From Pseudomonadota bacterium (lineage in GTDB: Bacteria > Pseudomonadota > Gammaproteobacteria > Acidiferrobacterales > UBA6901), in the NCBI GenBank assembly GCA_021785515.1, contig JAJYEX010000009.1:62001-126000 (forward strand): a stretch of 64,000 nucleotides of DNA, written 5' to 3'. Below are positions 47,926 through 64,000 of this stretch, in pieces; the first letter of the stretch is position 1; each line of letters starts with the position of its first letter. The position numbers and the translations under genes were made by a program. The notes beneath the pieces are model-generated. The model was not told the origin of the DNA, did no database searches, and saw only the letters and a list, made by a program, of their open reading frames with translations.

Positions 47926-49112
47926 GCGGCTCGGTAGCCGAAGACGAGGCTGACATTACTTCCGCCGAAGCCAAAGGAATTGCTCAACACCCGCCTGTTT
48001 TTCTGGTTCCGGTTTTCCAGCAAGACGTTCATGCTGAATTCTGGATCGACCGTGACGGTGTTGAGGCTGCCGGGCAAAAAGTTTTCTTGCAGACACAAGC
48101 AAGCGATAGCGGCCTCGGTAATGCCAGCAGCCCCCAGCGTATGTCCGGTCCAGCCCTTGGTTGAGCTGCAGGGAGTTCGGTTGCCGAAAAGACCGGATAC
48201 GGCGATATCTTCCGCGCGATCATTGGCGCGGGTTGCCGTTCCGTGCAGGTTGATGTAGTCAATCTGGGCCGGTTCTAGTCCGCCCCGCTGCAGCGCGCGC
48301 AGCATGGCCAGTCGCGCGCCGGCGCCTTCCGGATGTGGAGATGACATATGATAGGCGTCGCTGCTTTCTCCGTACCCCAGGAGGCAGGGCACGTCAGCAC
48401 TATCCTCTTCGCACCGTTCAAGCAATGCGAATCCTGCGGCCTCGCCAATCGAGATTCCGTTACGCTCGGCGTCAGCCGGGCGGCACGGCGTGGCTGACAC
48501 AATCTCGAGTGACGAAAAGCCGTACAGAGTCGTCATGCACAGGCTGTCGATGCCCCCCACTACGGCCGCGTCGCACAGACCGCTGGTGATCAGCCTGCTG
48601 GCCGAGGCAAATACCTTGGCGCTGGAAGAGCAGGCAGTCGAGATGGTGAATGCACAGCCCTGCAGTTTCAGGTAACGGCGCACGAAATCAGTGACGCAAT
48701 AATTTTCGTGCGTCGTCCGGTAGTTGAATTGCGCCGGCAACCTGCCGGCGGCATCGCGCTGCCGGTAGGCCAGTTCGGTCTCGAGAATCCCGGATGTGCT
48801 GGTGCCGAGGATTACCCCGACCCGGTGCGCACCATAACGCGCTCGCGCGGCCGCAACGGCCGACTCGAATCCGTCCGCCGCAAGCCCGAGCATGGCCAGC
48901 CGGTTGTTGCGGCAGTCAAATTCCCTGAGGCGGGCGACGACGGGCTCATTTTCGATGCCATCCACCCGACCGATGTACGTATCGATCGTGGCGTCCATGA
49001 AATTGCACTGGCGCAGGCCGGACTGTCCCGCCTGAAGCGCATCAAGCGTCGATTTTGTGCCCCGACCAAGAGCGTTAACCAGGGTATAGTGACTGATTGC
49101 TAGCGGGTGCAC
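47922..49112 (-). CDS. Beta-ketoacyl-ACP synthase (aryl-polyene elongation KS)
   Basis: This condensing enzyme of about 396 residues has catalytic Cys in TISTACSSSAKVFASA and the two histidines in NLHGTATRANDRAED and TKGWTGHTLGAAG. The C-terminal NSFGFGGSNVSLVFG is typical. It pairs with the chain-length factor that follows with a 4-bp overlap, the ApeO/ApeC-like arrangement. GTG at 49112 is the preferred start (family N-terminus HPLAISHYTLVNALGRG); the frame extends to 49190. Confidence 0.92.
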   Translation of the reverse strand: MHPLAISHYTLVNALGRGTKSTLDALQAGQSGLRQCNFMDATIDTYIGRVDGIENEPVVARLREFDCRNNRLAMLGLAADGFESAVAAARARYGAHRVGVILGTSTSGILETELAYRQRDAAGRLPAQFNYRTTHENYCVTDFVRRYLKLQGCAFTISTACSSSAKVFASASRLITSGLCDAAVVGGIDSLCMTTLYGFSSLEIVSATPCRPADAERNGISIGEAAGFALLERCEEDSADVPCLLGYGESSDAYHMSSPHPEGAGARLAMLRALQRGGLEPAQIDYINLHGTATRANDRAEDIAVSGLFGNRTPCSSTKGWTGHTLGAAGITEAAIACLCLQENFLPGSLNTVTVDPEFSMNVLLENRNQKNRRVLSNSFGFGGSNVSLVFGYRAA

Positions 49113-49190
49113 GATGGAGGCTTCCGGGGTGAGCTGAAGATTGAATATTCCGGAAAACTTCCTGTCCCATTGGGGCGCTTCAGGACGCAA

Positions 49191-50541: not shown

Positions 50542-50787
50542 ATGGACAGCAGGCTTGAACCGATCAAGGCTTATCTTGATCGACATCTCGACAATCCGCC
50601 GGAAACTCTCACTATGGAGACCAGGCTGGACGGGATCGGCGTCGATTCTATGGCGCTGCTCGAACTTATGATGGAGTTGGAAGACAAGTATGATTTCCGG
50701 CTCCCTGAGGATGTATCCACGCCGGAGACGGTCGGTCAGCTGGTCGCGCTGGTGGAACAGTACAGGCCCTCTGCATTAAATGAGTAG
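50542..50787 (+). CDS. Second acyl carrier protein of the pigment locus
   Basis: This 81-residue ACP has the phosphopantetheine serine in GIGVDSMALLELMMELEDKYDFRL. A GAGG-type site (AAGAAGAGGCG) precedes the ATG. The last codons overlap the start of the downstream ketosynthase by 8 bp, so it is probably its dedicated carrier or is coupled for stoichiometry. Sequence differs clearly from the ACP at 43933, so the two may hold starter and chain separately (inference). Confidence 0.93.
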   Translation: MDSRLEPIKAYLDRHLDNPPETLTMETRLDGIGVDSMALLELMMELEDKYDFRLPEDVSTPETVGQLVALVEQYRPSALNE

Positions 50788-52033
50788 GACCGGACCCTCC
50801 AGGGTCGCGGTGACCGGCATCGGTTTGGTTAGCCCGTTTGGCGGCGACGCCGACGATTTCTTCACGCGCATCATGCGTGGCGAATCCGCAGTGCGGTTGT
50901 ACCGTCATCCGGCCTCGCCCAACGACCTGGCCCAGCCTGCCGTTCAATGTGCACTGTTCAATCCGGAACAGGCCATTGGCCGCGCCTTGTCAAGCGTTAC
51001 CGATCGCTATAGCCAGCTTGGCCTTGCCGCGGCGTTTTCCGCATGGAGCGATGCGGGGTTTGCGCGCAAGGGCGCCGGATCCAACGAATATGGCGTATCT
51101 TGGGGGACAGGGGTAGGTGGCGCCCTGACCTACGAAAAGGGCTACACCGATTTCTTCGAGCGCAGCAGGCGTCGCGTGTCACCTCTGACCGTTGCGCTGG
51201 CCATGAACAATGCGGCGGCCTCGAACCTTGCGATCGCGCTCGGTCTGGGCGGGGCCTGTCTGACCTATTCAGTAGCCTGCGCCTCATCGGCCGTGTCCGT
51301 CGGCGAGGCATACCGCCGCGTCCGGTCTGGCCAGGACAAGCTGGTTGTCGCCGGCGGCTCCGAGGCGCCACTGGCGCTGTCCATCATGCTGGCATGGGAT
51401 GCCATGCGGGTGGTCGCGACCGGCGATGAGGAAAGTGCGTTCAGGGCATGCCGGCCATTCCAGCAGGGTCGCAAGGGCCTGGTGCTTGGTGAAGGCGCCG
51501 CGGCCTTGGTGCTTGAGGACTGGGTCCATGCCGAGGCCCGCGGGGCGCGTATTTACTGCGAGCTCGCCGGCTACGGGCAGAGCGGTGACCGCAGCCATTT
51601 GGTGCGTCCCGATGCTGATGGTCAGGTTCGGGCGATCGAGGCCGCATTGCATGAAGCCCGGCTGCCCGTGACCGACGTGGGGTACGTCAATGCTCACGGC
51701 ACAGCCACCCAGGAGGGCGACCCTATTGAGATCAGTGCGCTCAGAGCCGCTTTCGGGGAAGCCGCATCACGATTGCGCGTCAGTTCGACCAAATCGATGC
51801 ACGGGCATCTGTTGGGTGCGGCCGGTGCCATGGAAGCCGTGATTACGGTAATGGCACTGGTAAAACAGCAAATTCCGCCAACTGCGCACTTGCAGCAGGT
51901 CTCGGCGGATTGCGTCGGCGTCTCGCACGTGATGGGGGAGGGTCTGAGAGATGTCTGCTTTAGCGCGGCAATGAGCAATTCTTTTGCGTTTGGTGGCAGC
52001 AATGCCGTTCTGGTGTTTCGGCGGCCCGATTAG
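50780..52033 (+). CDS. Beta-ketoacyl-ACP synthase II-type enzyme
   Basis: This 417-residue ketosynthase has active-site Cys in TYSVACASSAVSVGEAYRR and histidines in VNAHGTATQEGDPIE and STKSMHGHLLGAAGAMEA. The C-terminal NSFAFGGSNAVLVFRR is typical. It is a second condensing enzyme of the locus, probably for initiation or a separate extension step. It overlaps the ACP gene by 8 bp and precedes two methyltransferases. Confidence 0.93.
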   Translation: MSRTGPSRVAVTGIGLVSPFGGDADDFFTRIMRGESAVRLYRHPASPNDLAQPAVQCALFNPEQAIGRALSSVTDRYSQLGLAAAFSAWSDAGFARKGAGSNEYGVSWGTGVGGALTYEKGYTDFFERSRRRVSPLTVALAMNNAAASNLAIALGLGGACLTYSVACASSAVSVGEAYRRVRSGQDKLVVAGGSEAPLALSIMLAWDAMRVVATGDEESAFRACRPFQQGRKGLVLGEGAAALVLEDWVHAEARGARIYCELAGYGQSGDRSHLVRPDADGQVRAIEAALHEARLPVTDVGYVNAHGTATQEGDPIEISALRAAFGEAASRLRVSSTKSMHGHLLGAAGAMEAVITVMALVKQQIPPTAHLQQVSADCVGVSHVMGEGLRDVCFSAAMSNSFAFGGSNAVLVFRRPD

Positions 52034-52066: not shown

Positions 52067-52846
52067 ATGGAAAACCAGAACGAGACGACCATCCCCGAAT
52101 GCGCGCAGGCCCCGCATCTGCCGCTTACAGATTATTATACCGACGAGGCTTCGCGCAGCGGGTTTGTGCGTGAGATGTTCGACAGCACGGCGGAGGACTA
52201 TGATCGGATGGAACGTATCATGGGGCTCGGATCCGGTTTGTGGTATCGCGGGCAGGCGCTGCAGCGCGCCGGACTGCGGTCCGGTATGAAGGTGGTGGAC
52301 GTCGGGGTGGGCACAGGGCTGGTGGCCCGTCAGGCCGCCCGTATTACCGGCAGCGGCGGGTTGGTGATCGGTATTGACCCGAGTCCGGGCATGATGCGCA
52401 ACGCCAAGGTTCCGCCGGACGTCGTGCTGGTAGAAGGCCGGGCTGAGAACATGCCATTTCCAGACAACCATTTCGATTTCCTGAGCATGGGATACGCTCT
52501 GCGCCACATCAGCGACCTGTCCGTGGCTTTCCGCGAATTCCACAGAGTAATGAAGCCGGGCGCCAAGCTGTGTATCCTCGAGATCACCTGCCCGGAGAGC
52601 CGATGGGCACGTATTCTGCTTAAGGGCTATATGAAAGGAGTGGTGCCGACGCTCGCCAGAGTGGTCGGAAGCAGGAAAAACACGCCGCGGCTCTGGCGTT
52701 ACTACTGGGATACCATCGAAGCCTGCATTCCGCGGGCCCAAGTACTTGCCACGCTCAAGGCTAGCGGTTTCGGCGAGGTGCGCTGTTACAGTGAAATCCG
52801 GGCTTTGGGTATGCTCGCTGAGTACCAGGCAACCAAGCCGGAATAG
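52067..52846 (+). CDS. SAM-dependent methyltransferase, UbiE-like
   Basis: This 259-residue class I methyltransferase has SAM motif I VVDVGVGTGLVARQAA, then GIDPSPGMMRNAK and the UbiE-like segment FDFLSMGYALRHISDLSVAFREFHRVMKPGAKLCILEIT. The UbiE type methylates quinone rings, but the position in a polyene locus suggests methylation of the aryl head or chain (inference). RBS GGAGAG before ATG 52067. Confidence 0.9.
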   Translation: MENQNETTIPECAQAPHLPLTDYYTDEASRSGFVREMFDSTAEDYDRMERIMGLGSGLWYRGQALQRAGLRSGMKVVDVGVGTGLVARQAARITGSGGLVIGIDPSPGMMRNAKVPPDVVLVEGRAENMPFPDNHFDFLSMGYALRHISDLSVAFREFHRVMKPGAKLCILEITCPESRWARILLKGYMKGVVPTLARVVGSRKNTPRLWRYYWDTIEACIPRAQVLATLKASGFGEVRCYSEIRALGMLAEYQATKPE

Positions 52847-52883: not shown

Positions 52884-53768
52884 GTGTCGAGCGGTCCGGT
52901 AATGCTTACCCATCTTATCGCCGAGCGGCTGTCGCGGCGGCTCCTGCCGAGAGTACCCGAACCGGGCCTCTCCGATCTCGACCGCGGGGCGCAATGCGCG
53001 GCATTTGAGCTTGCTGGCCGTGAAGATGGCATTCTTGTTGCTATTTACTTCTACCAGGCCATGCAAATAGCCCCGCTGGTTCGTCCCGGTGACCAGGTGC
53101 TTGATCTGGGATGCGGCCCGGCGAATCAGCTCGTTCATGTTGCGCGGCTGAATCCGCATGCGCATTTCACGGGGGTCGATGTCTCCGCCGCGATGCTCGA
53201 CCGGGCGCATCAAACGATTGCGCGTTCCAGCGTGACCAATGTCCGGGCGATTCAGAGCGACATGACCCGATTGGCGGAATTTGCCGATGACACATTTGAC
53301 TGCGTTATGTCGACCATGTCACTGCACCATCTTCCCGACGAGACGGCGCTCGCGGATGCGTTGTGCGCGGCGCGGCGTGTTCTAAAGCCGGACGGCAGCT
53401 TGTATCTGGTCGACTTCGGCCGCTTGAAGCGTGCCGCAACCCAGCGTTTTTTCGCCGAAGATCGCGGTGACGTTCAGTCGAAAGAGTTTACGCGTGATTA
53501 CCTGAATTCGCTCCGTGCCGCATTCAGCGTTGAGGAGCTTATACGCGCCGCTGCAGTGTTCGGCGGCCGCGTGAAGCGGTACACAACGGCGCTTGCGCCG
53601 TTTATGGTGATCTTCAAAAGCGCTGCACGGCATGAACCGGACGAGGGCTTGCAGGAGGCCGCCCGCGCGCAATACCGGCAGCTCAGCGTCACGCAGCGGC
53701 AGGATTTCATGCGGTTTGCGCGCTGGCTGCGGGTCGACGGCCTGACGCTGCCGTTTCTCTTGGGCTGA
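52884..53768 (+). CDS. SAM-dependent methyltransferase, class I
   Basis: This 294-residue enzyme has motif I QVLDLGCGPANQLVHVARLNPHAHFTGVDVSAAML and the motif FDCVMSTMSLHHLPDETALADALCAARRVLKPDG. The C-terminal part is unassigned. It starts with GTG at 52884 or ATG at 52902. It follows the UbiE-like gene by 37 bp and belongs to block (c). Acceptor unknown; an O- or C-methyl group on the pigment is plausible. Confidence 0.88.
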   Translation: MSSGPVMLTHLIAERLSRRLLPRVPEPGLSDLDRGAQCAAFELAGREDGILVAIYFYQAMQIAPLVRPGDQVLDLGCGPANQLVHVARLNPHAHFTGVDVSAAMLDRAHQTIARSSVTNVRAIQSDMTRLAEFADDTFDCVMSTMSLHHLPDETALADALCAARRVLKPDGSLYLVDFGRLKRAATQRFFAEDRGDVQSKEFTRDYLNSLRAAFSVEELIRAAAVFGGRVKRYTTALAPFMVIFKSAARHEPDEGLQEAARAQYRQLSVTQRQDFMRFARWLRVDGLTLPFLLG

Positions 53769-53888: not shown

Positions 53889-54608
53889 TTACTTCGCGCG
53901 CGCGATCAGCATAACGTTGGCGAAAGGTGTGCCGTGACTCATCGGAACAGGTTGGACCACGAAGCCGCGTTGCTGTAGGGCCTGCATCCAGGCCGACAGC
54001 GGCCGGCACCACATGCGGGCCAGACGATGTCCTTGGAGAAACGACATTCCGGCGTCCACCACTTGGCTGATCGCGAATCTCAAACCGCCGTCCGCATTGC
54101 CGACCCGTGTGACGAATACGCCATCCCGTCCGATCGCAGCACGGATCTTATCGAGCATCAAATCCTGTTCGGCGTAGGAAATGTAGTGAAGTACGTCAAG
54201 GATCGCAATGACGTCGGACCCCCCCAGCTCGGCGTCGCGCATGTCGCCACCGCTCAATTGTACGCGTTCGCCGTGCAGCGGCTGTAATGCCCGGTTGCCG
54301 CAGATTGCCTCGCGCTCCATCAGTTCAACGCCGTGGAAGCGCAGGCCGGCCGGGGGAGGCGGATCGTCTCGCCATTCTCCTTGGGCTGCCAGGCGTTCCG
54401 CAGCCAGAAGCCATGCCGCCAGCAGGCCGCGGCCACACCCGAGATCCAGCACCCGCGCACCATCGGGCAGAATCGCACGCTCAAGCAGCGCCGCAAAAAT
54501 CGGATCGCTCCCGAGCTTGCCCCGTGCCCAGTGATAATTGAAACGGCCGGTGCCGCGGTAAGGTTCGGTAGCTAGATCCAGCAGCCGCTTTTTCAGGCTG
54601 GTCTGCAT
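53889..54608 (-). CDS. SAM-dependent methyltransferase, class I (third of the locus)
   Basis: This enzyme of about 239 residues has motif I ARVLDLGCGRGLLAAWLL, then GVELMEREAI and VIAILDVLHYISYAEQDLMLDKI. It starts with MQTSLKKRLLDLATEPYRGTGRFNYHWARGK. ATG 54608 overlaps the 3' end of the deacetylase gene by 16 bp. It ends the reverse-strand operon of block (d) and converges on the second methyltransferase. Its place after the exporter gene is typical of aryl-polyene loci. Confidence 0.88.
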   Translation of the reverse strand: MQTSLKKRLLDLATEPYRGTGRFNYHWARGKLGSDPIFAALLERAILPDGARVLDLGCGRGLLAAWLLAAERLAAQGEWRDDPPPPAGLRFHGVELMEREAICGNRALQPLHGERVQLSGGDMRDAELGGSDVIAILDVLHYISYAEQDLMLDKIRAAIGRDGVFVTRVGNADGGLRFAISQVVDAGMSFLQGHRLARMWCRPLSAWMQALQQRGFVVQPVPMSHGTPFANVMLIARAK

Positions 54609-55423
54609 GACAGGCCCAACGGTACAGGGTTCAGTTTGCGAGCCGCCAGTTCTGCGATCAGGCGTGGCAATACTTCGACAATGACCGGAATCCCATTCGA
54701 ACTGCGGGCGCAATGGCCATCGTGCAGAAGAAGAATATCGCCCGCGCTAAGCCCGCGCGTAAGGCGCGCAAATACGATATCGGCATCTCCGCAGCGCGTG
54801 TCGTACGCACGCCGCGTCCAGCTTGCGAGCCTGATGCCGGCCGTCTGCAGTACCGGGTCGAGGAGGGGATTGCGCAGACCGGCAAGTGCACGAAAGTACT
54901 GCGGTCTTCGTCCGGTTATGCTTTCCAACGTCTTCTGCGCATCACCCACTTCGCGCGTCCAGCCAGCGATACCGGAAAATGCGGCGTGTTTCCGGTGACG
55001 CTGTCCGTGGTTTTCGATCACATGCCCACCTGCCAGGATGTCACGGCAGACCTCCGGATGTGCGATGGCCTTTTCACCGATGCAGAAGAAAGTCGCATGG
55101 ACCCCGTGCTGCGCGAGAATACCGAGCACCAGCGGTGTGACTTCCGGGTCCGGCCCATCGTCGAAGGTAAGCGCCACTTCGCCCCGCGCCGCTGATGCAG
55201 GCGGTAGCCGCACAAGATTAGCGCCCAGCAGGCTGCTGCGCGGCCACAGCCCGGCGGCGGCTATTACGCCGTGGTTCACCAGCACGATGGCGAGCGCCCA
55301 TTCCCAGCTGGCGGGTGCAACCAGTACCAGCGCCAGTGCCCCTGCGTGAGCCAGGATCGATGCCTTCATAAATGGCGTGAGCCGCCATGAGCGCACCGGG
55401 TATTGGGCGCCGGATTGGGTCAT
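54593..55423 (-). CDS. Polysaccharide deacetylase (NodB domain) with N-terminal membrane helices
   Basis: This 276-residue protein has two N-terminal hydrophobic segments and a NodB domain. The metal and catalytic motif is ALTFDDGPDPEVT, with VIENHGQRHRKHA and the C-terminal ILLLHDG. Such enzymes remove acetyl groups from sugars. Its overlap with both neighbours (4 bp with the exporter, 16 bp with the methyltransferase) ties it to pigment synthesis, perhaps acting on a glycosylated product (inference). Confidence 0.88.
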   Translation of the reverse strand: MTQSGAQYPVRSWRLTPFMKASILAHAGALALVLVAPASWEWALAIVLVNHGVIAAAGLWPRSSLLGANLVRLPPASAARGEVALTFDDGPDPEVTPLVLGILAQHGVHATFFCIGEKAIAHPEVCRDILAGGHVIENHGQRHRKHAAFSGIAGWTREVGDAQKTLESITGRRPQYFRALAGLRNPLLDPVLQTAGIRLASWTRRAYDTRCGDADIVFARLTRGLSAGDILLLHDGHCARSSNGIPVIVEVLPRLIAELAARKLNPVPLGLSCRPA

Positions 55424-57771
55424 GTGTCGGATATACCGGCTTTTCTTCGTGATAGTATGGCTGAAAACAGCAGAGAGAACAGGGCACCCAGACTGACTGT
55501 AGTGCCGATATCCGACAGCACCGGGATGCTGGAAAAGCCCAGGATAGCGAAGCTGCCCACAGTCGCGAGATTGGCAACTACCAGAGATATCTGCATGCGG
55601 CGGCGCTCGTCGGCGGTCACCGATTGGCCTCCGCCCTCAAAAAACAGCGCGTAGTTCGAGCCAATCGCGACGACCAACAGCAGTCCGACAAGGTGCAGGA
55701 TGGTCAGCCTGATGCCATTCCCCAGCAATATCCCCGCGACGCACGCGACCGCGCAGGCCAGCGGGGCGACCACGCGCAGCGTACGCGCTGCCGATTTTAG
55801 CGCGGCCAGCAGCAATCCGACGATCACCAGACAGCCGACTTCGGACAGCATCAACGCCTCATTGCGATAGTTTCGGAATAGATCGGTCGATTCCTTCAAC
55901 AGGTCAATCACGACGATGTTCTTGAGCCCGGTTGTCTTCAGCACGGACTGGACGTAGTTGACGTTCAGAGGCGGCCTGGCGCCGGTGTCGGATGGACGTA
56001 ACGGCATCAGCACGAGATAGTCGCGGTTCCGGCGGATCAGAAGTGAGTCTACCAAAAGCGCCGCCGAGGTGCCGTCCAGATCGGCGCGACTCAAAAGTTT
56101 CTGTTTCCGGGCCGCCTGCAGATCTGAAAGAAATCCGTGTAATGAATGGAATTTTACCGGCAGGCCGGCGAGTGCCTGCCGCAGCCGCAGTCGCGCCAGA
56201 CGCGCGTCGGGAATGGCTGCCTGCCGTGCGCGCTGCTGGGCGCGGCTCGGCAGTACAAATGCAGGGGAATTGAATCCACCGAGCAGTTGACGATGAACCA
56301 GTCCGCGCAGCACCCCACCCGCCTTTTCGGCTCCCTGCAGGGCCAGTTCCCTGTTCGGCGCGCTAAAGGCAACCATGTAGCGCAGGTCCGGCGCGCCGAG
56401 GTCATTGCGCAACCTCTGGTCGAGCCGCTGATCGGCCTTGGAAATTGGACTGAGTGCCGACAGGTTCCGGTTCCATATTCTCGCCGAGTGTGCGAAGACG
56501 ACGCCTATGGACGCCAGCGCCAGAAGGGGCGGCAGCCACCGAAACCGGGTGATAAAGTCGAGAGCCTGGTCTAGCACGAGACCGGGACGACTGAGGTCGC
56601 GCAGCTTCAGCTGTCGCGGTACCAGCACCGGTAACACGTAGCGCGTTACCAGTACGGCCGCGATCAGCCCGCTGATCGAGTAGACTCCAAGCTGCGCAAG
56701 CCCCGGAAAGTCGGAAAACAGAAGTGGCGCAAATCCGGCGATCGATGTGGCGACCCCTAACCAGATAGTGCGCCAGAAGTAGCTTGGGTTCAGATGCCCG
56801 GTTCGTTGCAGGTAAAAGTATATAGAGTAGTCGACCGCTTCGCCGATCAGGGTGGTCCCGAACCCGAGAGTAAGCCCGTGCACCTGGCCGAAGTGCAGGC
56901 TGACGGCGGTTATCCCAACCAGCGCGCCGGACAGTACCGGCAGCAGGCCGATTCCTAGAAGCCGCGGTGACCGATAGACAAGCAGCAGCAGAAACGTCAC
57001 AAGCAGCAGACTGGCGCTTGCCAGCCGGGTGACTTGGCCCTGTATGGTGTTGCGCGACCTCACGGCGAACACGCTGGTGCCGCTCATGACCACGCGACTT
57101 CCCGCCTGGCGGTGCGGCAATTGTCCGAAAGTTTTCCGGATATAGCTGATGGCGCGCGCTTGCGCCCCGATGGCGGTGCCAGGCGCCTGGGTGTAGGCCA
57201 GCAGTACCGCCCACTTTCCACTGCGGGAGGCCCAGACACCGTCCAATCTGCGCGGCTGACTGCTGCCATCAAATTGATCCAGTAGCCGCAGCGTTTCACC
57301 TGTCGGGTCGCGCGCAAACAGCCTTGCGAGCAGCAGCCCGGTGTCGCCGGAAAGCGCATCAATGGAGTTTTTGATGGCAGCGTGAAGCCCGCGCGCGGTA
57401 AACCGTTCCGGGGTGATGTCGGGGCTGAGCAGATAGCGATTGTCGAAAAAATATCTGCGGTCACGTCGTTCGGTGGCGGAATCCCCGTTCAGCACCCCGA
57501 GGAAAAGGCCGCTGCGACGCAGACGACCGGCTAGTTCCCGGGACATGCGCGCGCGCCCTGGCGCGTTTCCGCCCTCGATGCCGATCATGATGAGGCGCCC
57601 GATGATTCCGTACCTGAACTGGTCGACAAGCAGTTTTTGACGTGCACTCGGCGCCTTCGGCATGAAAGCTGAGAGGTCAGACACAAACCGTGTTCGGGCG
57701 ATGATCAGCGCGCAAGCCACCAGCAGCGTGAGCCACAGTCCCAGGACAAGGCGTTGCCAGCCCGGTTTCAT
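55420..57771 (-). CDS. MMPL/RND-family exporter
   Basis: This 783-residue membrane protein has about twelve helices in two repeated halves with large extracytoplasmic loops, the MMPL/RND plan. Visible helices include LASASLLLVTFLLLLVYRS, LVIVGLLLAALKS and LHLVGLLLVVAIGSNYALFFEGG. MMPL proteins are standard in aryl-polyene loci and are thought to move the lipid-linked pigment to the outer membrane. The start overlaps the LolA-like gene by 4 bp and the stop overlaps the deacetylase by 4 bp. Confidence 0.92.
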   Translation of the reverse strand: MKPGWQRLVLGLWLTLLVACALIIARTRFVSDLSAFMPKAPSARQKLLVDQFRYGIIGRLIMIGIEGGNAPGRARMSRELAGRLRRSGLFLGVLNGDSATERRDRRYFFDNRYLLSPDITPERFTARGLHAAIKNSIDALSGDTGLLLARLFARDPTGETLRLLDQFDGSSQPRRLDGVWASRSGKWAVLLAYTQAPGTAIGAQARAISYIRKTFGQLPHRQAGSRVVMSGTSVFAVRSRNTIQGQVTRLASASLLLVTFLLLLVYRSPRLLGIGLLPVLSGALVGITAVSLHFGQVHGLTLGFGTTLIGEAVDYSIYFYLQRTGHLNPSYFWRTIWLGVATSIAGFAPLLFSDFPGLAQLGVYSISGLIAAVLVTRYVLPVLVPRQLKLRDLSRPGLVLDQALDFITRFRWLPPLLALASIGVVFAHSARIWNRNLSALSPISKADQRLDQRLRNDLGAPDLRYMVAFSAPNRELALQGAEKAGGVLRGLVHRQLLGGFNSPAFVLPSRAQQRARQAAIPDARLARLRLRQALAGLPVKFHSLHGFLSDLQAARKQKLLSRADLDGTSAALLVDSLLIRRNRDYLVLMPLRPSDTGARPPLNVNYVQSVLKTTGLKNIVVIDLLKESTDLFRNYRNEALMLSEVGCLVIVGLLLAALKSAARTLRVVAPLACAVACVAGILLGNGIRLTILHLVGLLLVVAIGSNYALFFEGGGQSVTADERRRMQISLVVANLATVGSFAILGFSSIPVLSDIGTTVSLGALFSLLFSAILSRRKAGISDT

Positions 57772-58388
57772 CTGCCAGGGCCGGTCTGGGTGATGACCAT
57801 TACAGAATGGTCACCGTTATGCTGCTCGAGCTCAATGGTTCTTATGTATGCGTGCGATCCGCTGATGCGAATGTGGCTAAATATGTGGCTCAGCTTCCTC
57901 TGTTTCGGTGTCAGCACGAGCTGCCAATCGCCCATCGGTCCCGTAAGTCGCAGCGCATAGTACGTTTTAAGCGCTGAAAGGTTGCCGGCCAGTGTGCCGC
58001 GTATGCTGTCGATGAACGCCGCGACTTCCGGATGCCCCTCAAGGCTGACGGTGATTTGGTGCTTTCCGGGACGCTTGATAGTGAGGACATTGCCGCGCAG
58101 CGCCAGCAACTCCGGTTTGGGTGTAAGCGTGCGTTTTTCGAGACGGTCCGGTGCGATGTAGGATAGATCGCCCGTGGATATGAGTGGATGTTCGATGATT
58201 CCGATGTACGTCTTTTCCACGAATGTGGCCTTGTCCGACCTGCGCTGGGCCAGAAGCCCCATCAGTTGTGCGAGCTGCGAACCGCTGGCGCAGGCCACCG
58301 GAGTCACCAGCAGCAGCGCAAGCAGGACCGTTGATACGGTGTACGGAAAATCAGGTCGTCTCACGGTCAGCGGGCTTCCAAAAATCAT
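57768..58388 (-). CDS. LolA-like outer membrane lipoprotein carrier homologue
   Basis: This protein of about 206 residues has an N-terminal signal peptide ending near VACASG and the LolA-like fold: LMGLLAQRRSDKATFVEKTYIGIIEHPLISTGDLSYIAPDRLEKRTL. Periplasmic LolA relatives are common in polyene loci and may carry the pigment through the periplasm to the outer membrane. ATG at 58388 is chosen. The gene overlaps the LpxL-like gene by 38 bp and the MMPL gene by 4 bp. Confidence 0.85.
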   Translation of the reverse strand: MIFGSPLTVRRPDFPYTVSTVLLALLLVTPVACASGSQLAQLMGLLAQRRSDKATFVEKTYIGIIEHPLISTGDLSYIAPDRLEKRTLTPKPELLALRGNVLTIKRPGKHQITVSLEGHPEVAAFIDSIRGTLAGNLSALKTYYALRLTGPMGDWQLVLTPKQRKLSHIFSHIRISGSHAYIRTIELEQHNGDHSVMVITQTGPGR

Positions 58389-59292
58389 AAAAGTTGAACC
58401 AATTGAACGGTTCCGCATAGCAGTAGCGCTCAAGCGCAGCCACGTATTTGGTCAGCAGTTCGCAAACCTCATCCTGCCGGTTTGCCATCGGCGGTCCCGT
58501 GAAGTCGGTCAGAAGTTCGAAATGTACGTCGTAGCGGTTGCCGCCACGGTACAGACCGGCCATGAAATAGACCGGGTGGCGCAGCATCACGGCCGTGCGG
58601 AACGGCCCGGTTGGAAAGGGGGCGGCCGACCCGAAAAACGGGAGCTCGAGATATCTGTCTGGCCCGCTCGCACGGTCGGCGAGAAGGCCAACCATGGCGC
58701 CGCCCTGCAGGCGGTGGTGAATTTCCAGCATCGCGTCCAGCGGACCGAGGGTGATGATGTCGAGCATTACATCCGGATTAATGGCCGCCAAAGAGGCGTT
58801 GATCTGGCGCGCGTTTTCGGGGTTCATTGCGACGCATACCCGCAGGTTCGGGTTGTCGCGCGCAACGCTGCGCAGCATCTCGAAACTTCCGAGATGTGCG
58901 CCGAACAGGAAGCAGCCGCTTCCGGAGGCATGCAATGCGTGTACCCGCTCGGCGTCGAAGATCCTGATGTCAAACAGGTCATAGCGGTTGTTGAGCAGAT
59001 AGAGGCGGTCGTGGATAGTTGTGGAGAACGTGAGTATGTGGCGGTACAAGTCGCGCCATCCCGCTGGCCGGCGCAATACCCGCTCAAGGTAGGCGCGCGA
59101 GGCCTGACGCACCGATTTTGCGGACAGGAGGAAGTACCACGCGATGCCGTACACCACGACCCGGGACAGCCGACGCCCGAACAGCAGCGACAGTCTTCGC
59201 ATGATGCCTAGCCACAGGACGCTGCCGCGCTCTTTTTTCTGCAGCCATTCGGGTGCCGGCCCGGCACCCGAAGTTGATGGTGTAGTGGTCAT
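58351..59292 (-). CDS. LpxL-like lysophospholipid/lipid A acyltransferase family protein
   Basis: This protein of about 313 residues has a single N-terminal membrane helix and the HtrB/LpxL-like pattern: GCFLFGAHLGSFEMLRSVAR (HxxxxE-type motif, here HLGSFE), VGLLADRASGPDRYLELPFFG and NWFNFYDFW near the C-terminus. It should transfer an acyl chain, probably the polyene acyl group or a fatty acid, to a lipid. ATG at 59292 is chosen. It is followed by the LolA-like gene with 38 bp overlap. Confidence 0.9.
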   Translation of the reverse strand: MTTTPSTSGAGPAPEWLQKKERGSVLWLGIMRRLSLLFGRRLSRVVVYGIAWYFLLSAKSVRQASRAYLERVLRRPAGWRDLYRHILTFSTTIHDRLYLLNNRYDLFDIRIFDAERVHALHASGSGCFLFGAHLGSFEMLRSVARDNPNLRVCVAMNPENARQINASLAAINPDVMLDIITLGPLDAMLEIHHRLQGGAMVGLLADRASGPDRYLELPFFGSAAPFPTGPFRTAVMLRHPVYFMAGLYRGGNRYDVHFELLTDFTGPPMANRQDEVCELLTKYVAALERYCYAEPFNWFNFYDFWKPADRETT

Positions 59293-59684
59293 GGCGACGC
59301 GTAGTGAATCCGAAGCGAAGAGTCGCTGGCAATGCAGTGGCCGGCGCCGGTTGTGCCCGCCCCGTGCCAGGGTCTGGATGCATGCAGGTCCGCAGCGGTG
59401 ACGGACAGGCGGGTGGCGGCAGCTCCGCAAATCACGGGCGGCCTGCCGGGTGGCCGAAGCAAATGCCGTTGCCTGAATTCCCGGGACAAATGATTCATTC
59501 CAGCGAGTTTCCCCGTCTGTGCTGCGCCCGACATTGTTCAGAGGACCGTCCGCGGAACTGCAGATGTTCCGCGCTTGGCGACTGCGACCGCAGGCAGTGC
59601 CACGGCTGACCGGTTGGAGCCGACGCTCCCATCGATACCTGACCGAGCAAGCGGCATGGAAGTGCAAGGATCATATCGCGGCGG
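59293..59684. other. 392-bp gap within an otherwise overlapping operon
   Basis: All other neighbours in block (d) overlap or nearly touch, but here 392 bp separate the AMP-ligase from the LpxL-like gene. No frame with family support was found on either strand, and no terminator or promoter consensus was recognised. It may contain an internal promoter or the decayed remains of a gene. Confidence 0.35.
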
Positions 59685-61019
59685 TCACGGAATATATTTG
59701 GCAATGAGTTCAGCCATAGCCGATGCAGGGATCTTGCCGTTGCCGTCGCGTGGCAGCGATTCGAGGAACACAATCGGCCGCGGCAGGAATACGGGATCCA
59801 GCTGCAGCAGCAGGGATGAGTGAATGTCGTGTGGCCGCAATCCCGGCGCAACCACGAACGCGGCCAGGCGCGAGACATTGCGTTCCGGATGCGTTTCCGG
59901 AATGCAGAACACGCCGTCGCGCACGCCTGGCAGATTGGCAATGACCCGGTTCAGGTAAGACAGCGAGCTGCGCTTACCGACGACGTTTACCATGTCGGAG
60001 TCGCGTCCGAGCAGCCGGAACCGCGATTGGCTGCGGATCTCGACGATATCGTTCAGTATCTGGGGTGATTCCAAGTGTCCACCGCTGACTACGGTGGTGC
60101 CCTGCTCCTGTGTCAGCGTAATGTGGTCATACGCTTCCCATTCGGAACTCATGGTGGGCCGGCGCGTGGCAATCTGTCCAGTTTCCGTCGATCCGTATAT
60201 CTCGATGATCGGTGTTTGCAGTCTGCGTTCCGCTTCAACGGCCAGTTCTTCCGGCAAGGGTGCGGTCGCTGACACGATTGCTGCGAGCGGTGGAAAGTCT
60301 ATGTCGCTTTCCAGCAGATTACGCAGGTGAAATGGCGTTGTCACGAGCAGTCTGGGGGCCGGTACCTGCGCCAGTGCCGCAGCCACGTCAGCCGGAAAAA
60401 ACGGTAGCCGTGAGGCCAGCCGTCCCCCCCCGATCAATGGCAGGAATATGGTCGACTCAAGCCCGTACATATGCTGGAACGGCACGGTACCGAGCACTGT
60501 GCACGGGCCGCCGGCCGCCCCCCACAGACGCCCCGCCCCGGTCATGATGCACTGGCATATCCGTCCGAAAGTTTTGCCGTGGTGGTTTGGTCTGCCGGTC
60601 GAGCCCGATGTGTAGACGTGCATTATGGTCTGGGCGGCGGGAATGCGCGGCGTGTCGAGGCCGCCTGCGGAAATGCCCTGTCCGCGGCCGGACACCTGCA
60701 GGTAGGGTAAGTCGACCGGCGCTGATGGCTGGTCGCCCAGACACACGAGATCCGAATGGTCACGTTGAATGCCAGTGATGATGTCGGGTGCGGCCGAGTT
60801 CGGCAGGACGGTCAGCGTGCCGCGGGCAATGCTCGCGAACAGTGTCGCTGCAAACCAGTATCTGTCCCTGCACAGGTTAAGAACGTGTCCCGTGTCCGGT
60901 ATGCGCGCGGCCAGTGCCAGCAGATCATCCAGAAACTCGCCGCGCGTGACCGCCCTGCCGTCGCGGTAAGCAACAATCGAATCCGAGGCGGATTCCGGCA
61001 GAAGTGGAAGGCTGTTCAT
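59685..61019 (-). CDS. AMP-binding acyl/aryl ligase of the pigment locus
   Basis: This 444-residue adenylating enzyme has A3 motif YTSGSTGRPNHHGKTFG, A5 IYGSTETGQIA, A7/A8-like FRLLGRDSDMVNVVGKR and A10 RDGNGKIP. It probably activates the hydroxybenzoate starter and loads it on an ACP. The A3 motif has Asn where Lys is usual (PK). It is about 80 residues shorter than many CoA ligases but normal for aryl-polyene loci. It lies 6 bp after the COG4648-type gene. Confidence 0.9.
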   Translation of the reverse strand: MNSLPLLPESASDSIVAYRDGRAVTRGEFLDDLLALAARIPDTGHVLNLCRDRYWFAATLFASIARGTLTVLPNSAAPDIITGIQRDHSDLVCLGDQPSAPVDLPYLQVSGRGQGISAGGLDTPRIPAAQTIMHVYTSGSTGRPNHHGKTFGRICQCIMTGAGRLWGAAGGPCTVLGTVPFQHMYGLESTIFLPLIGGGRLASRLPFFPADVAAALAQVPAPRLLVTTPFHLRNLLESDIDFPPLAAIVSATAPLPEELAVEAERRLQTPIIEIYGSTETGQIATRRPTMSSEWEAYDHITLTQEQGTTVVSGGHLESPQILNDIVEIRSQSRFRLLGRDSDMVNVVGKRSSLSYLNRVIANLPGVRDGVFCIPETHPERNVSRLAAFVVAPGLRPHDIHSSLLLQLDPVFLPRPIVFLESLPRDGNGKIPASAMAELIAKYIP

Positions 61020-61025
61020 CGTCGC

Positions 61026-61703
61026 TTATGGTGTGTTTTGACGCTGCGCGTATTCCCGGTAGGCCCGGATGGTGGCGGCGACACTGAGCCGCGGTCCGTT
61101 CGGCAGCGCGCGCAGGCGGATCAGGTATTCTCCGGAAAACATGATCGCAAGCGAGACCGGCGTCAAAATATTGGCAAAGACCCACCACGCGTTGATCGGG
61201 GCAAAAAAGAACAACACCATGGAAAGCGCCGCACTGACTGCAAAGTAGATGGTCCAGGCCAGCGTGACTTTCCAGGTGTAGTGCAGGTACCCGGCATCCA
61301 ACAGTTTAGGGAAGATAAGGCTGGCAATACGCGAGCACAGCGCGTCACCGTGTTTGTTGCCGAGTGTGCTGCCGAACGTGATGGCGAGGAGAACCATCGC
61401 CCCGACATGCTGTACGAAGTACACCCATGCGGCATGGTTGCGCAGCTGGTCTATGTGAATGGCGATGGCCAACACGCACAGTGCATATAGCGACACAAAC
61501 AAAATGCGACTTCGCGATTTCCATGCCATCACCAGCGCTGCCGCACCGAGCGGTGCCAGTCCGATGAGAATCACTGCCAACGGCGGGTGTGGCCTGGTCG
61601 TGGCGACGTAGCTAATGGCCACGTAGACCACGCCAGCCAGCACGAGCAGGAAGTTGCGGATGGAGAGCACGCCGCGAATCGTGCGCCCGTTTCGTCCGGT
61701 CAC
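61026..61703 (-). CDS. COG4648-type integral membrane protein
   Basis: This protein of about 225 residues has six or so membrane helices (SIRNFLLVLAGVVYVAISYVA, LAVILIGLAPLGAAALVMA and VFANILTPVSLAIMFSGEYLIRL). The ending EYLIRLRALP is typical of COG4648, found in aryl-polyene gene clusters. Function is unknown. GTG start at 61703 follows the phosphatase stop by one base. It precedes the AMP-ligase by 6 bp. Confidence 0.82.
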   Translation of the reverse strand: MTGRNGRTIRGVLSIRNFLLVLAGVVYVAISYVATTRPHPPLAVILIGLAPLGAAALVMAWKSRSRILFVSLYALCVLAIAIHIDQLRNHAAWVYFVQHVGAMVLLAITFGSTLGNKHGDALCSRIASLIFPKLLDAGYLHYTWKVTLAWTIYFAVSAALSMVLFFFAPINAWWVFANILTPVSLAIMFSGEYLIRLRALPNGPRLSVAATIRAYREYAQRQNTP

Positions 61704-61704
61704 G

Positions 61705-62520
61705 CTAGGGTTCCTGTTCCGTAACACCGTATTCCGGCCGATTTGCACCGCCGGCACATCTCCTGTTGGCTGATCCGGCCCAGCGGTATGCCCAGATGAA
61801 GACCAGTGCCAGACCGATGCCTGCAGCAACATCGATTGCCATATGCTGTTTGGTGGCCATGGTAGAGTAAACAATTGCAGCGCACCAGCATGCGCTGAAG
61901 ATGCGTATACTCCGGCCCAGAGCGAGCTCCGGGAACCGTTGGTCCATCCAGGACCAGGAAAACACGGCTGTGGCGACGTGCAGCGACGGGCAGGCGTTGC
62001 CCGCAGCATCGATGCCCTTGAGAAATGCCATTCCCGGATAGCGGGCCCAGTCGACGTGGGCAGGCGGTATGGCTGTTGGCCAGAAGTAGAAGATGGTCAA
62101 CGCCACCAGACAGAGGCCGCCGATCCATTTCCCGTATTCGAAGATGGCCTGCCGCGTGGTCATCAGTATCGGTGGCAGTGATACGTACAACCACAGCGAG
62201 AGGTAAAACGGCAGCATAAACGGTTCAACGCCTATTATCCGGTCCAAGGCAGTTTCCGGAATGATAGTCACCGGATAGGCCGGGTGCTTGAGCAGGTAAA
62301 GATAGGCCACAAAGAACAGAGAGGTGAACCCCATGGTTCCGAAACATTTGAGCCAGAAATGGGCGAAGATAACCGATGGCATGTTGCGCCACCCGCCGAT
62401 ATCCCGGGACCGTGCCCCGGCGCTGTCGGGATGCGTCGATGCTCCCGGGCTGACTGCTGATGCCAGCGGCTTCCCGAAACGGGTAGCGTCGATGTCCGTA
62501 TCTTTTGAATGACTGGACAA
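61705..62520 (-). CDS. PAP2-family phosphatase
   Basis: This 271-residue membrane protein has several helices and the PAP2 motifs CPSLHVATAVFSW and STMATKQHMAIDVAAG, with the catalytic histidines in the latter two. PAP2 enzymes remove phosphate from lipids or transfer headgroups (inositol phosphorylceramide synthase-like members share this pattern). It opens the reverse-strand operon (d). Role in pigment lipid handling is inferred. Confidence 0.88.
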   Translation of the reverse strand: MSSHSKDTDIDATRFGKPLASAVSPGASTHPDSAGARSRDIGGWRNMPSVIFAHFWLKCFGTMGFTSLFFVAYLYLLKHPAYPVTIIPETALDRIIGVEPFMLPFYLSLWLYVSLPPILMTTRQAIFEYGKWIGGLCLVALTIFYFWPTAIPPAHVDWARYPGMAFLKGIDAAGNACPSLHVATAVFSWSWMDQRFPELALGRSIRIFSACWCAAIVYSTMATKQHMAIDVAAGIGLALVFIWAYRWAGSANRRCAGGANRPEYGVTEQEP

Positions 62521-63043
62521 AATATGTCTCCGAATAAGATGGGGGTGGCGTGCAGTCTGATTGACCGGTTCTGGCAGGGCGTCGGAATGTCCGAAGCCGC
62601 AGCACTTCAGGCGTTCGGGACGGTACCCTGCAGGATCACGTTATCCCCGGTGCAATCCGTGCATTCCCTGCGAACCCGCTCGCGGTGCCTGCCTCAGATC
62701 CGGTTACGGGCGGACTGACAGATTGTGCCACTGTGCGCGCCGTATCCCCCCATGAATATCTGCCATCCAAACGACCCAGAACAGTGGAAGTGTTCGGCAA
62801 CACCTGGATTTCGGGTGCTGTAGACATTATAAAAGAAATTACCGCACAGATGACCTTCCCAGAGATCTCCCCGGTCCCGGCCGGTGCGGGCGGGTTCTGG
62901 CCGTGACGCCACTCAGGATGCAGCGCAGACGGGATCCAGACGGGTTTTCCGGGCCGGCGGTATCGCGAGGGTCGCTGCGTCAAGACCCGTCTGGGCTTTC
63001 CCGGTTGTGTGCCGCCACGCCAGACAGGGTAGACTTGCGACTG
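62521..63043. other. Divergent promoter region between blocks (d) and (e)
   Basis: About 520 bp separate two opposite operons. A frame continuous with the dehydratase extends back to 62903 but its residues are not conserved. A TATAAA-like AT-rich patch at about 62825-62840 is the most promoter-like element. No RNA gene recognised. Confidence 0.4.
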
Positions 63044-63337
63044 ATGAAGATCAGTGCCAGCCATCCGGCCCTTGCAGGCCATTTCCCCGGCAACCCCGTG
63101 GTTCCAGGTGTTGTGATCCTCGATGAGGTGCTGCAAGCTGCTGGCGTTTTCCTGGGACGCCCGGTGCGAACCACGGGCCTGCCGAGCGTGAAGTTTTCGG
63201 CGCCGCTTGCTCCCGAAGAAGAGTTTGAAATTGTTTTTGACCGGAAAGACGACGGACGAGTCGGGTTCGTGGTGCGCAGTGGTGCGCAGGCTTTCGCCAC
63301 TGGTGTGTTGACGTATGATATTCATGGTTCTCGCTGA
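63044..63337 (+). CDS. 3-hydroxyacyl-ACP dehydratase, FabZ/ApeI-like hotdog
   Basis: This protein of about 97 residues, possibly longer at the N-terminus, has the hotdog dehydratase motif HPALAGHFPGNPVVPGVVILDEVLQAAG (catalytic His in GHFPGNP). It removes water from the beta-hydroxy intermediate to build the polyene. ATG at 63044 is chosen because upstream residues lack conservation; the frame is open to 62903. A second dehydratase follows at 63446. Confidence 0.85.
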   Translation: MKISASHPALAGHFPGNPVVPGVVILDEVLQAAGVFLGRPVRTTGLPSVKFSAPLAPEEEFEIVFDRKDDGRVGFVVRSGAQAFATGVLTYDIHGSR

Positions 63338-63445: not shown

Positions 63446-63883
63446 GTGACGCTGGATCACGACGCAATCTGCGCCCTTATCCCCCATGCGGGATCGATGT
63501 GCCTGCTCGATGGCGTAGAGTCCTGGGATGAGGAGACGATGCTGTGCTATGCCGTGTCCCACACCAGCCATGCCAATCCGTTGCGGACGCATGATGGTCT
63601 GCATGGAATCTGCGGCGTGGAGTACGCGGCCCAGGGCATGGCGTTGCACGCCCGTCTGTCCGGGGTGAGCGGTCCTTCCGGTGGCGGCATGCTCGCCAGC
63701 GTGCGCAACCTCAGACTTTATGTGGACAGGCTGGAGGACTGTGGCGAGCGGATCTGGATTGAAACGCGGCGGCTGGGCGGGTCGGCGCAGGGCTTTGTCT
63801 ATGATTTCGAGGTGCGCGCCGCAACGACAGTATTGCTGTCCGGACGGGCGGCAGTCATGGTGACGGAGGGAGACGGTCCGTGA
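63446..63883 (+). CDS. ApeP-like 3-hydroxyacyl-ACP dehydratase (hotdog)
   Basis: This 145-residue hotdog protein has the typical start ICALIPHAGSMCLLDGV, then CGVEYAAQGMALHARL and LASVRNLRLYVDRLEDCGERI, the ApeP pattern. It pairs with the FabZ-like protein in aryl-polyene loci. GTG at 63446 is the start. Its stop overlaps the next gene start (GTGA at 63880-63883). Confidence 0.9.
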   Translation: MTLDHDAICALIPHAGSMCLLDGVESWDEETMLCYAVSHTSHANPLRTHDGLHGICGVEYAAQGMALHARLSGVSGPSGGGMLASVRNLRLYVDRLEDCGERIWIETRRLGGSAQGFVYDFEVRAATTVLLSGRAAVMVTEGDGP

Positions 63884-64000
63884 GGCGCGCGCTTGTGACA
63901 GGCGGTAGCGGCGGCATCGGGGCGGCCATTGCGCGACAACTTGCGCGCGACGGCCTGAAGGTGATCGTGCATGCCAATCGCCATCGGGAACTGGCGGAGG
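63880..64000 (+). CDS. 3-oxoacyl-ACP reductase (FabG/ApeQ-like), truncated by window end
   Basis: The frame starts with GTG at 63880 and is still open at the window end. The first 40 residues contain the SDR nucleotide-binding signature ALVTGGSGGIGAAIAR. It should reduce the beta-keto intermediate with NADPH. Overlap with the upstream dehydratase stop supports a KR/DH operon. Confidence 0.9.
   Translation, partial: MRRALVTGGSGGIGAAIARQLARDGLKVIVHANRHRELAE

Follow-up and report, generated by a model that had tools for sequence, protein, structure and literature searches.

An eight-gene arm of a XanB2-type aryl polyene cluster that probably anchors a yellow pigment on a sugar-bearing membrane lipid and exports it

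What do a NodB-type deacetylase, a PAP2-superfamily protein and a methyltransferase contribute to the exporter genes with which they are arrayed? The window, that is, the whole stretch of 64,000 nucleotides that was analysed, carries these genes in a block of eight on the minus strand, from 62520 to 53889. All eight lie where the original prediction had placed them, and the overlaps it had given are correct: 38 bp for LpxL/LolA, 4 bp each for LolA/MMPL and MMPL/NodB, and 16 bp for NodB/methyltransferase, lengths that take ATG 58388 and ATG 54608 as starts, with MMPL and NodB read from the start of their ORFs. Domains scoring over the Pfam cut-off are PAP2_3, AMP-binding, Lip_A_acyltrans, LolA_3, MMPL, Polysacc_deac_1 and a methyltransferase domain; the "COG4648" protein matched nothing in Pfam or NCBIfam, and E. 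coli ApeG is its match. In order of transcription, the block reads:

61705..62520, minus: PAP2-superfamily membrane protein at the operon head (PF14378, E 1e-7, over cut-off; model and fold searches)
61026..61670, minus: COG4648/ApeG-like membrane protein, presumably in the ArcU position, start uncertain from 61670 to 62009 (ApeG 24%, E 1.5e-5; profile E 5e-37)
59685..61019, minus: putative AMP-ligase for the aryl starter (ArcT, ApeH; PF00501 E 5e-18; ApeH E 6e-27)
58351..59292, minus: LpxL-like acyltransferase, matching E. coli ApeJ over its C-terminal part (PF03279 E 2e-7; ApeJ residues 218-550, E 1e-31)
57768..58388, minus: LolA-like periplasmic carrier (ArcQ, ApeL; PF19574 E 1e-16; ApeL E 2e-6)
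55420..57771, minus: MMPL/RND-type exporter (ArcP, ApeM; PF03176 E 2e-11; ApeM E 6e-19)
54593..55423, minus: NodB/CE4 deacetylase (ArcN position), with an N-terminal hydrophobic stretch by eye (PF01522 E 3e-25, over cut-off)
53889..54608, minus: methyltransferase c (ArcM position), ATG start at 54608 (PF13489 over cut-off; model pLDDT 94, class I methyltransferase matches)

The near-continuous spacing that had been claimed for the block holds at most junctions. The one between the AMP-ligase and LpxL genes measures 17 bp only if LpxL starts at TTG 59667; the conserved reading begins at about ATG 59292 in three of four congeners and extends further upstream in the fourth. A start at about 59292 leaves some 390 bp before the AMP-ligase gene, a segment that none of the four congeners matches at the DNA level. 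The idea that this gap conceals a dehydratase was rejected, as dehydratase profiles had no match in any of the six frames. Comparison of gene order in relatives, which had been suggested as a check, shows the order from PAP2 to methyltransferase to be conserved in all four congeners fetched, one of them truncated within the methyltransferase gene by a contig end, and this is more than chance.

Judged by its homologies, the block forms one arm of an aryl polyene cluster of the XanB2 type (xanthomonadin/arcuflavin-like), which spans about 43.9 kb to 64.6 kb and ends just beyond the window. The other cluster genes are:

43927..44202, plus: acyl carrier protein, ApeE-like, the first cluster gene found (E. 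coli ApeE, 46% identity, E 6e-21)
44351..45370, plus: XanB2-type chorismatase, which would make hydroxybenzoate from chorismate (PF21168 E 3e-37, over cut-off; TIGR04444 E 9e-67, below cut-off)
45535..46383, plus: PlsC-like acyltransferase, ApeD-like (PF01553 E 1e-15; ApeD 30%, E 2e-19)
46338..47156, plus: family 2 glycosyltransferase (GT2), matching E. coli ApeJ over its N-terminal part (PF00535 E 1.5e-18; ApeJ residues 9-242, 40%, E 9e-54)
47125..47925, minus: ketosynthase chain-length factor, ApeC-like (PF13723 E 2e-30; ApeC E 4e-16)
47922..49190, minus: ketosynthase, ApeO-like (ApeO 43%, E 2e-87)
50542..50787, plus: acyl carrier protein (PF00550 E 1e-7)
50780..52033, plus: second ketosynthase, ApeR-like (ApeR 32%, E 1e-57)
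52067..52846, plus: methyltransferase a, UbiE-type (PF01209 E 6e-30)
52884..53768, plus: methyltransferase b (PF13649 E 9e-24)
62903..63337, plus: FabA/FabZ-like dehydratase, ApeI-like (PF07977 E 4e-8; ApeI E 7e-10)
63446..63883, plus: second dehydratase, ApeP-like (ApeP profile E 4e-17; no Pfam match)
63880..64000 in the window, plus: ketoreductase, ApeQ-like, running past the window to 64599 on the same contig (ApeQ 49%, E 1e-72)

Fourteen of the 18 E. coli Ape proteins have a counterpart among the window proteins (ApeB weakly, ApeP by profile only), and ApeF is also matched, through the acyl carrier protein at 43927. The chorismatase is of the XanB2/FkbO/Hyg5 type, and the ketosynthase with its chain-length factor, ketoreductase, dehydratases, acyl carrier proteins and AMP-ligase are all present, as are acyltransferases, the glycosyltransferase, the LolA-like protein and the MMPL exporter. 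No flavin-dependent halogenase of the PF04820 type, the mark of xanthomonadin proper, turned up anywhere in the genome with the E limit at 0.001; the same search found matches in 5 of 14 control genomes. Within this yellow-pigment cluster, the block is the part that probably anchors the pigment on a sugar-bearing membrane lipid and sends it outward.

We propose, with a probability of about 0.65, that the block would be the starter-activation, membrane-anchoring and export arm of the cluster, in which an amino-sugar lipid anchor is assembled or trimmed by GT2, NodB, methyltransferase c and PAP2. Gene content, order, homology, cross-genome association and conserved motifs are what the sequences show; the substrates, the order of steps and pigment production itself we infer as follows. 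XanB2 would make the hydroxybenzoate starter and the AMP-ligase would load it, with the polyene acid then being built by the ketosynthase/chain-length factor, ketoreductase and dehydratases. GT2 would place a sugar on a lipid carrier, the PlsC-like and LpxL-like acyltransferases would attach acyl chains, and NodB would take the N-acetyl group off the sugar added by GT2. The exposed amino-sugar head might be further modified by methyltransferase c through methylation and by PAP2 through phosphate or phospho-head-group chemistry, before MMPL and LolA would deliver the completed pigment lipid to the outer membrane.

The sugar is suggested by ApeJ: GT2 and the LpxL-like acyltransferase match the two halves of this single E. 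coli protein, which suggests that they act jointly and makes the predicted amino-sugar pigment plausible. The glycosyltransferase is not, however, specific to deacetylase clusters, since it is present in 21 of 28 NodB-negative exporter neighbourhoods, and 2 of 10 NodB-positive ones lack it within the stretch. Its presence in NodB-negative neighbourhoods suggests a glycosylated anchor for the cluster type in general, to which NodB would add de-N-acetylation in a subset. In this one sample, the counts make LolA, LpxL and GT2 the common anchor and export genes, and NodB, methyltransferase c and PAP2 the optional ones. A study of the full pigment lipid is said to have arrived at galactosamine-phosphate-glycerol. 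The lipid of Xenorhabdus doucetiae is mentioned as just solved in PMC8253772. A dedicated deacetylase, methyltransferase and PAP2 protein would be three named enzymes whose loss would reveal anchor variation.

What, then, is the role of PAP2? Of the 11 genomes that carry its subfamily, 10 contain an exporter match as well (base rate 82/369; Fisher p 1.7e-6, kinship ignored), although two of these matches, in G240 and G266, are weak (about 1e-23) and lie on other contigs. All 14 loci in which PAP2 adjoins NodB belong to a single clade of 22 rows in a quick NodB tree of 96 rows, so that, the genomes being related, the counts overstate the independent events. Thiobacillus denitrificans RG, Sulfuriferula multivorans TTN and Polaromonas sp. 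OV174 are among the strains in which exporter, NodB and PAP2 are laid out together. PAP2 might be an ordinary lipid phosphatase, for instance in undecaprenyl pyrophosphate recycling or lipid-phosphate trimming, rather than a head-group transferase, and we consider this a serious possibility at somewhat under even odds. Both PF01569 and PAP2_3 match 20 of 20 members scanned, and, for the PAP2 model, B. subtilis PGP phosphatase (Z 12.5) and LpxE (Z 11.7), covering 157 and 149 residues, come within about 2 Z of SMSr and Aur1. The three best structures are nevertheless SMSr (Z 14.2), Aur1 (13.5) and IPC synthase (12.9), with a longer coverage of 190-194 residues, and the model appears at least as similar to phospho-head-group transferases as to phosphatases. 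Moreover, KX6RP, the classical C1 motif that marks PAP2 phosphatases, is missing from 24 of 24 members, whose aligned His-His-Asp triad fits an SMS/IPC-synthase-like pattern. PAP2_C, a model of the sphingomyelin-synthase type, gives matches with E no higher than 0.01 in 8 of 20 members. Placement of PAP2 by sequence among solved structures was abandoned, as there was no match to solved chains even at E 10.

It is tempting, if doubtful, to go further and suppose that a pigment-dedicated PAP2 branch is a head-group transferase, transferring a phospho-head group (e.g., phosphoglycerol) to the amino sugar added by GT2 and deacetylated by NodB, with methyltransferase c capping the amine set free in this way. 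In that case, the pigment would be a glycolipid that is both phosphorylated and de-N-acetylated, assembled much as Nod factors are, and its optional modules would vary from clade to clade. The literature searched, which comprised part of the candidate papers, contained no description of PAP2 in aryl polyene or xanthomonadin clusters.

For NodB, the motifs TxDDGP, NHxxxH, FRAxxG and LHD are present in 14 of 14 aligned sequences, giving the metal-binding Asp, the two His and the other conserved motifs of CE4 enzymes. The third motif of classical CE4 enzymes is FRPPxG, and the FRAxxG found here means that the substrate may differ. The chitooligosaccharide deacetylase equivalog TIGR04243 was not reached (107.5 bits against a cut-off of 240). 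The coupling to the exporter foreseen from the overlap was borne out: among the 70 named loci with enough flank, 53 have the exporter as the nearest recognised gene on the upstream side of NodB, no more than 1.5 kb away, the gap being under 0.3 kb in 43 of the 53 and 0.66-0.84 kb, space for another gene, in the other 10. Within the order, the NodB family of this cluster occurs in 21 of 57 genomes, all 21 exporter-positive, and the 27 exporter-negative genomes have only six weaker NodB matches (E 1e-31 to 1e-36); 9 of the 30 exporter-positive genomes, whether pigmented or not, lack the family. A pigment made with neither deacetylase nor glycosyltransferase was to count against the amino-sugar proposal, and E. 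coli supplies half of this, its aryl polyene being made without a deacetylase among the 18 ape genes but with a glycosyltransferase (PMC8253772). Together with the nine NodB-lacking genomes, this makes the deacetylase look like an optional modifier.

The two further methyltransferases, a and b, that had been noted nearby are indeed there, both encoded on the plus strand (52067-52846 and 52884-53768). Methyltransferase b occurs in three of four congener stretches (the fourth ends short of the gene), in 0 of 50 exporter loci and in 0 of 80 NodB loci, and is seen here as confined to the genus among the loci sampled. Methyltransferase c, with a generic methyltransferase fold in its model, is found in 3 of 10 NodB-positive and 0 of 28 NodB-negative exporter neighbourhoods, a distribution that fits action after deacetylation. 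In one genome (G180) it lies on a 9.4-kb contig without a recognised pigment gene. The specific claim that methyltransferase c is a true NodS was rejected, since 1 of 23 members matches NodS and NodS ranks low among the solved relatives. The two optional genes, methyltransferase c and PAP2, might seem to exclude each other across 45 large named loci (methyltransferase c alone 15, PAP2 alone 13, both 3, neither 14), but this idea was dropped because the Fisher p is about 0.06 and NodB-adjacent PAP2 is confined to one clade.

Alternatively, NodB and the methyltransferases could act on the aryl polyene or an O-acetyl ester, with methylation of the aryl head or carboxyl and NodB as an O-deacetylase. 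Methyltransferase a is weakly ApeB-like (E 8e-4), and methylation of the aryl head group has been proposed as the role of ApeB in E. coli (PMC8253772); acetyl-xylan esterases, too, are among the solved CE4 relatives of NodB. We nonetheless regard this as unlikely, as methyltransferase c tracks NodB and not the pigment core, and the top-scoring solved relatives of NodB, which include peptidoglycan GlcNAc deacetylases, and its NCBIfam models are mostly sugar N-deacetylases. That NodB, methyltransferase c and PAP2 are bystanders sharing the operon while modifying LPS, peptidoglycan or exopolysaccharide is very unlikely: NodB homologues of other subfamilies do act, by name, on peptidoglycan or polysaccharide, and further NodB-type matches exist in this genome on contigs C3 and C11, but the 4-bp NodB/exporter overlap, the recurrence of the exporter-NodB neighbourhood across many genera and the nesting of NodB within the exporter-positive genomes of the order all stand against it.

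How does the amino-sugar anchor that we favour compare with known systems? In rhizobia, NodC, NodB, NodS and NodA are a glycosyltransferase, an amine-freeing deacetylase and a methyltransferase, followed by acylation with an unsaturated chain. A similar working logic would apply here, although the NodB equivalog cut-off is missed and methyltransferase c is only weakly NodS-like. The E. coli CFT073 ape cluster (NC_004431) has homologous acyl carrier protein, AMP-ligase, COG4648, LolA, MMPL, ketosynthase, chain-length factor, ketoreductase, dehydratases and acyltransferases, but its GT2 and LpxL are fused as ApeJ, whereas they are separate genes here, and it has no match for the NodB, PAP2, methyltransferase b, methyltransferase c or XanB2 of this cluster.

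The view of the tailoring set as unusual was mostly mistaken, since a closely similar one, compared by gene names and order, is described for the grass endophyte Azoarcus sp. BH72 (PMC3949708): methyltransferase, PS-deacetylase, exporter, LolA, acyltransferase and AMP-ligase follow in the same order, and a second arc locus holds XanB2, acyltransferase, glycosyltransferase and ketosynthase genes, as here. The arc cluster differs in that arcO, a gene of unknown function, separates the deacetylase from the exporter and a dehydratase gene intervenes before the AMP-ligase, after the acyltransferase; it also has a halogenase and a partner resorcinol cluster, and is spread over separate loci, whereas here everything is in one locus; PAP2, present here, is not in its Table 1 (PMC3949708). 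In Chitinophaga pinensis, flxP-flxU likewise bring together polysaccharide deacetylase, acyltransferase, LolA, glycosyltransferase and exporter with a proposed export role, but in that flexirubin cluster (PMC3992019) the pathway begins with tyrosine ammonia-lyase and 4-coumarate ligase, and its product is linked to a dialkylresorcinol. Thus, the gene set is mostly known from other pigment clusters, of which this one, with its phosphatase-like PAP2 and extra methyltransferase, is a slightly unusual version.

The eight genes of the block form a real operon: ORFs and domain matches in the window place them all where the original prediction had put them, on the minus strand, and its overlaps of 38, 4, 4 and 16 bp are borne out by reading of the gene ends. 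The two extra methyltransferases it named were found as well, on the opposite strand. The tight packing claimed for the operon fails at the AMP-ligase/LpxL junction alone, where the LpxL start is most likely the ATG at 59292, ~390 bp behind the AMP-ligase. On DNA comparison, the conserved LpxL reading starts at this ATG in three of four congeners (same-genus relatives), and extends further up at locus L106. Nothing in the DNA of the four congeners compared matches the gap, 59293-59684; their own gap is ~0.2 to 1 kb, measured from matched domain to matched domain. In many other clusters a dehydratase occupies this interval; here, a dehydratase lies at 62903.

43927-44202: acyl carrier protein (ACP), first listed gene of the cluster
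46338-47156, plus strand: glycosyltransferase GT2
52067-52846, plus strand: methyltransferase a
52884-53768, plus strand: methyltransferase b
62520-53889, minus strand: operon of PAP2, COG4648, AMP-ligase, LpxL-like, LolA-like, MMPL exporter, NodB deacetylase and methyltransferase c (53889-54608)
64599, beyond the window: end of the ketoreductase
64744-65823 (window numbering, same contig past the window): transposase-like ORF of 359 aa, IS110-type by eye

Judged from its sequence, the block is part of one aryl polyene cluster, whose support consists of homology, gene order, motifs and association. After the ACP come a XanB2-type chorismatase, a PlsC-like acyltransferase, GT2, a chain-length factor, a ketosynthase, an ACP, a second ketosynthase, two methyltransferases, the minus-strand operon, two dehydratases and the ketoreductase. 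Since the transposase-like ORF stands directly behind the ketoreductase, the cluster may be bounded on the right by a mobile element. Between ketosynthase and ACP, 1.35 kb (49191-50541) hold no recognised gene. In the congener stretches, which may end short of this region, it has a single DNA match, of 40 bp, and two cluster halves may be joined here. Beyond the genus, the exporter is best matched, at 47% identity, by genomes G061 and G077, which belong to a different order of the class, and no match from its own order exceeds 40%; NodB clusters with Simplicispira and uncultured proteobacteria in a quick tree. Judged by these two genes (54593-57771), the cluster may be foreign to the order. 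In one congener (G005 C137:6257-8590), a TAG stop lies inside the matched exporter stretch, either a sequencing error or a pseudogene.

How regularly does NodB accompany such clusters? In the class-wide sample the exporter occurs in 82/369 genomes (E up to 1e-12). Fifty neighbourhoods were taken (listed rows down to 5e-33, minus the window, G239 and a second G276 fragment), and the 38 with at least 4.5 kb on both sides were used for counts: LolA 38, LpxL 35, GT2 29, AMP-ligase 29, XanB2 18, NodB 10, methyltransferase a 9, PAP2 6, methyltransferase c 3 and methyltransferase b 0. The 28 lacking NodB include GT2 in 21, PAP2 in one and methyltransferase c in none. Within the order, 30/57 genomes have the exporter (E up to 1e-30); of these, 21 carry the NodB family, 20 at E below 1e-80 and one through a partial match at 2e-39, and nine do not. 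Exporter-negative genomes account for all six of the weaker NodB matches (1e-31 to 1e-36). The named-genome sample was chosen by NodB (best 80 of at least 590 family relatives), and 70 loci have enough flank. On the upstream side, within 1.5 kb, the nearest recognised gene is the exporter in 53 of them, with gaps below 0.3 kb in 43 and of 0.66-0.84 kb in 10; the nearest recognised gene downstream is methyltransferase c in 28, a ketosynthase in 16, PAP2 in 13, a dehydratase in one and none in 12. From these three samples, NodB is apparently optional in this cluster type and varies by clade, while most such clusters have LolA, LpxL, the exporter and GT2.

The CE4 motifs of NodB, T(F/I/L)DDGP, NHxxxH, FRAxxG(L/F/M)RxP, (S/A)W(S/T)xR and LHD, are kept across 14 aligned proteins; with slightly different patterns, applied to the matched domain stretch only, each is found in 70 to 80 of those best 80 named loci. 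Among solved structures, the best matches are two chains annotated as predicted xylanase/chitin deacetylase, followed by peptidoglycan GlcNAc deacetylases; the NCBI cut-off for NodB equivalog status is not reached. Methyltransferase c, modelled as a generic class I methyltransferase, follows NodB in the genus. It occurs in seven genomes of the class sample, five of them exporter-positive; NodB adjoins it by position in five, and the other two genes are on 9.4- and 3.4-kb contigs lacking NodB, the former with no other recognised pigment gene. Methyltransferase b is confined to the genus among the congener stretches, exporter loci and NodB loci compared, and methyltransferase a is UbiE-like with a faint ApeB match.

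The PAP2 subfamily, searched with neighbours ignored (E up to 1e-20), is in 11/369 genomes, of which 10 have an exporter match, against a base rate of 82/369 (Fisher p 1.7e-6, relatedness ignored). For G240 and G266, two of the ten, the exporter match is weak (~1e-23) and stands on a different contig from PAP2. PAP2 shares a stretch with recognised pigment genes in 9/11 genomes, in G240 a chain-length factor only; the PAP2 stretch of G266 has a weak GT2 match alone, and that of G098, the weakest PAP2 match, a weak AMP-ligase match alone, with no exporter in the genome. Among the 57 genomes of the order, strong matches are limited to the five of the genus, with one marginal (4e-4) elsewhere.

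Is this protein a phosphatase or a transferase? PSxH and S(T/S)x4QHx3D are kept in 24/24 members of a first alignment, none of which has KX6RP; the second motif is missing from 1/20 rows of another. Structural comparison of the model (pLDDT 87) puts SMSr (Z 14.2), Aur1 (13.5) and an IPC synthase (12.9) first, over 190-194 residues, followed by PGP phosphatase (12.5) over 157 and LpxE (11.7) over 149; by Foldseek none of the five passes E 0.001 (best 7e-3). The model favours a transferase, short of proof, because scores that differ by less than 1 Z count as ties and a Z of 13 is easily reached by helical models.

We propose that GT2 would glycosylate a lipid carrier, LpxL/PlsC would acylate, NodB would free an amine, methyltransferase c and PAP2 would finish the head group, and MMPL and LolA would export. 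PAP2, PAP2 with methyltransferase c, or methyltransferase b may alter the product. A galactosamine-phosphate-glycerol unit is reportedly part of the Xenorhabdus doucetiae aryl polyene lipid; a deacetylase and a head-group transferase would be consistent with such a unit. By sequence comparison, E. coli-type clusters have neither a NodB-type deacetylase nor a PAP2 gene, and would therefore need other enzymes for these reactions. The best NCBIfam model for GT2, the polyprenyl-phospho-N-acetylgalactosaminyl synthase PpgS (46 of 370 bits, far under the cut-off), gives a faint hint of a GalNAc lipid. The predicted amino-sugar pigment is a reasonable idea.

When 18 Ape proteins of E. coli CFT073 were compared with the window proteins by BLAST, ApeB (weakly), C, D, E, G, H, I, J, L, M, O, Q and R were matched, ApeF solely by the ACP at 43927, and ApeA, ApeK and ApeN not at all; ApeP was matched by profile. 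GT2 matches ApeJ residues 9-242 and LpxL residues 218-550; thus, two separate genes here correspond to one fused protein in E. coli. The gene list in PMC8253772 gives no deacetylase for E. coli, and the main text on the Lysobacter enzymogenes pigment does not use the word (PMC3691225). The list for the Azoarcus sp. BH72 arcuflavin cluster names arcM methyltransferase, arcN PS-deacetylase, arcO, arcP exporter, arcQ lolA, arcR acyltransferase, arcS dehydratase, arcT AMP-ligase, arcU and arcV ACP (PMC3949708), and flxP-flxU of the Chitinophaga pinensis flexirubin cluster are listed as deacetylase, acyltransferase, LolA, glycosyltransferase and exporter, with a proposed export role (PMC3992019). 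An arrangement much like this one was already published in 2014, so calling the set unusual was mostly an overstatement. What sets this version apart is PAP2 at the head of the operon, PAP2 together with methyltransferase c (both present in 3/45 large named loci), and methyltransferase b.
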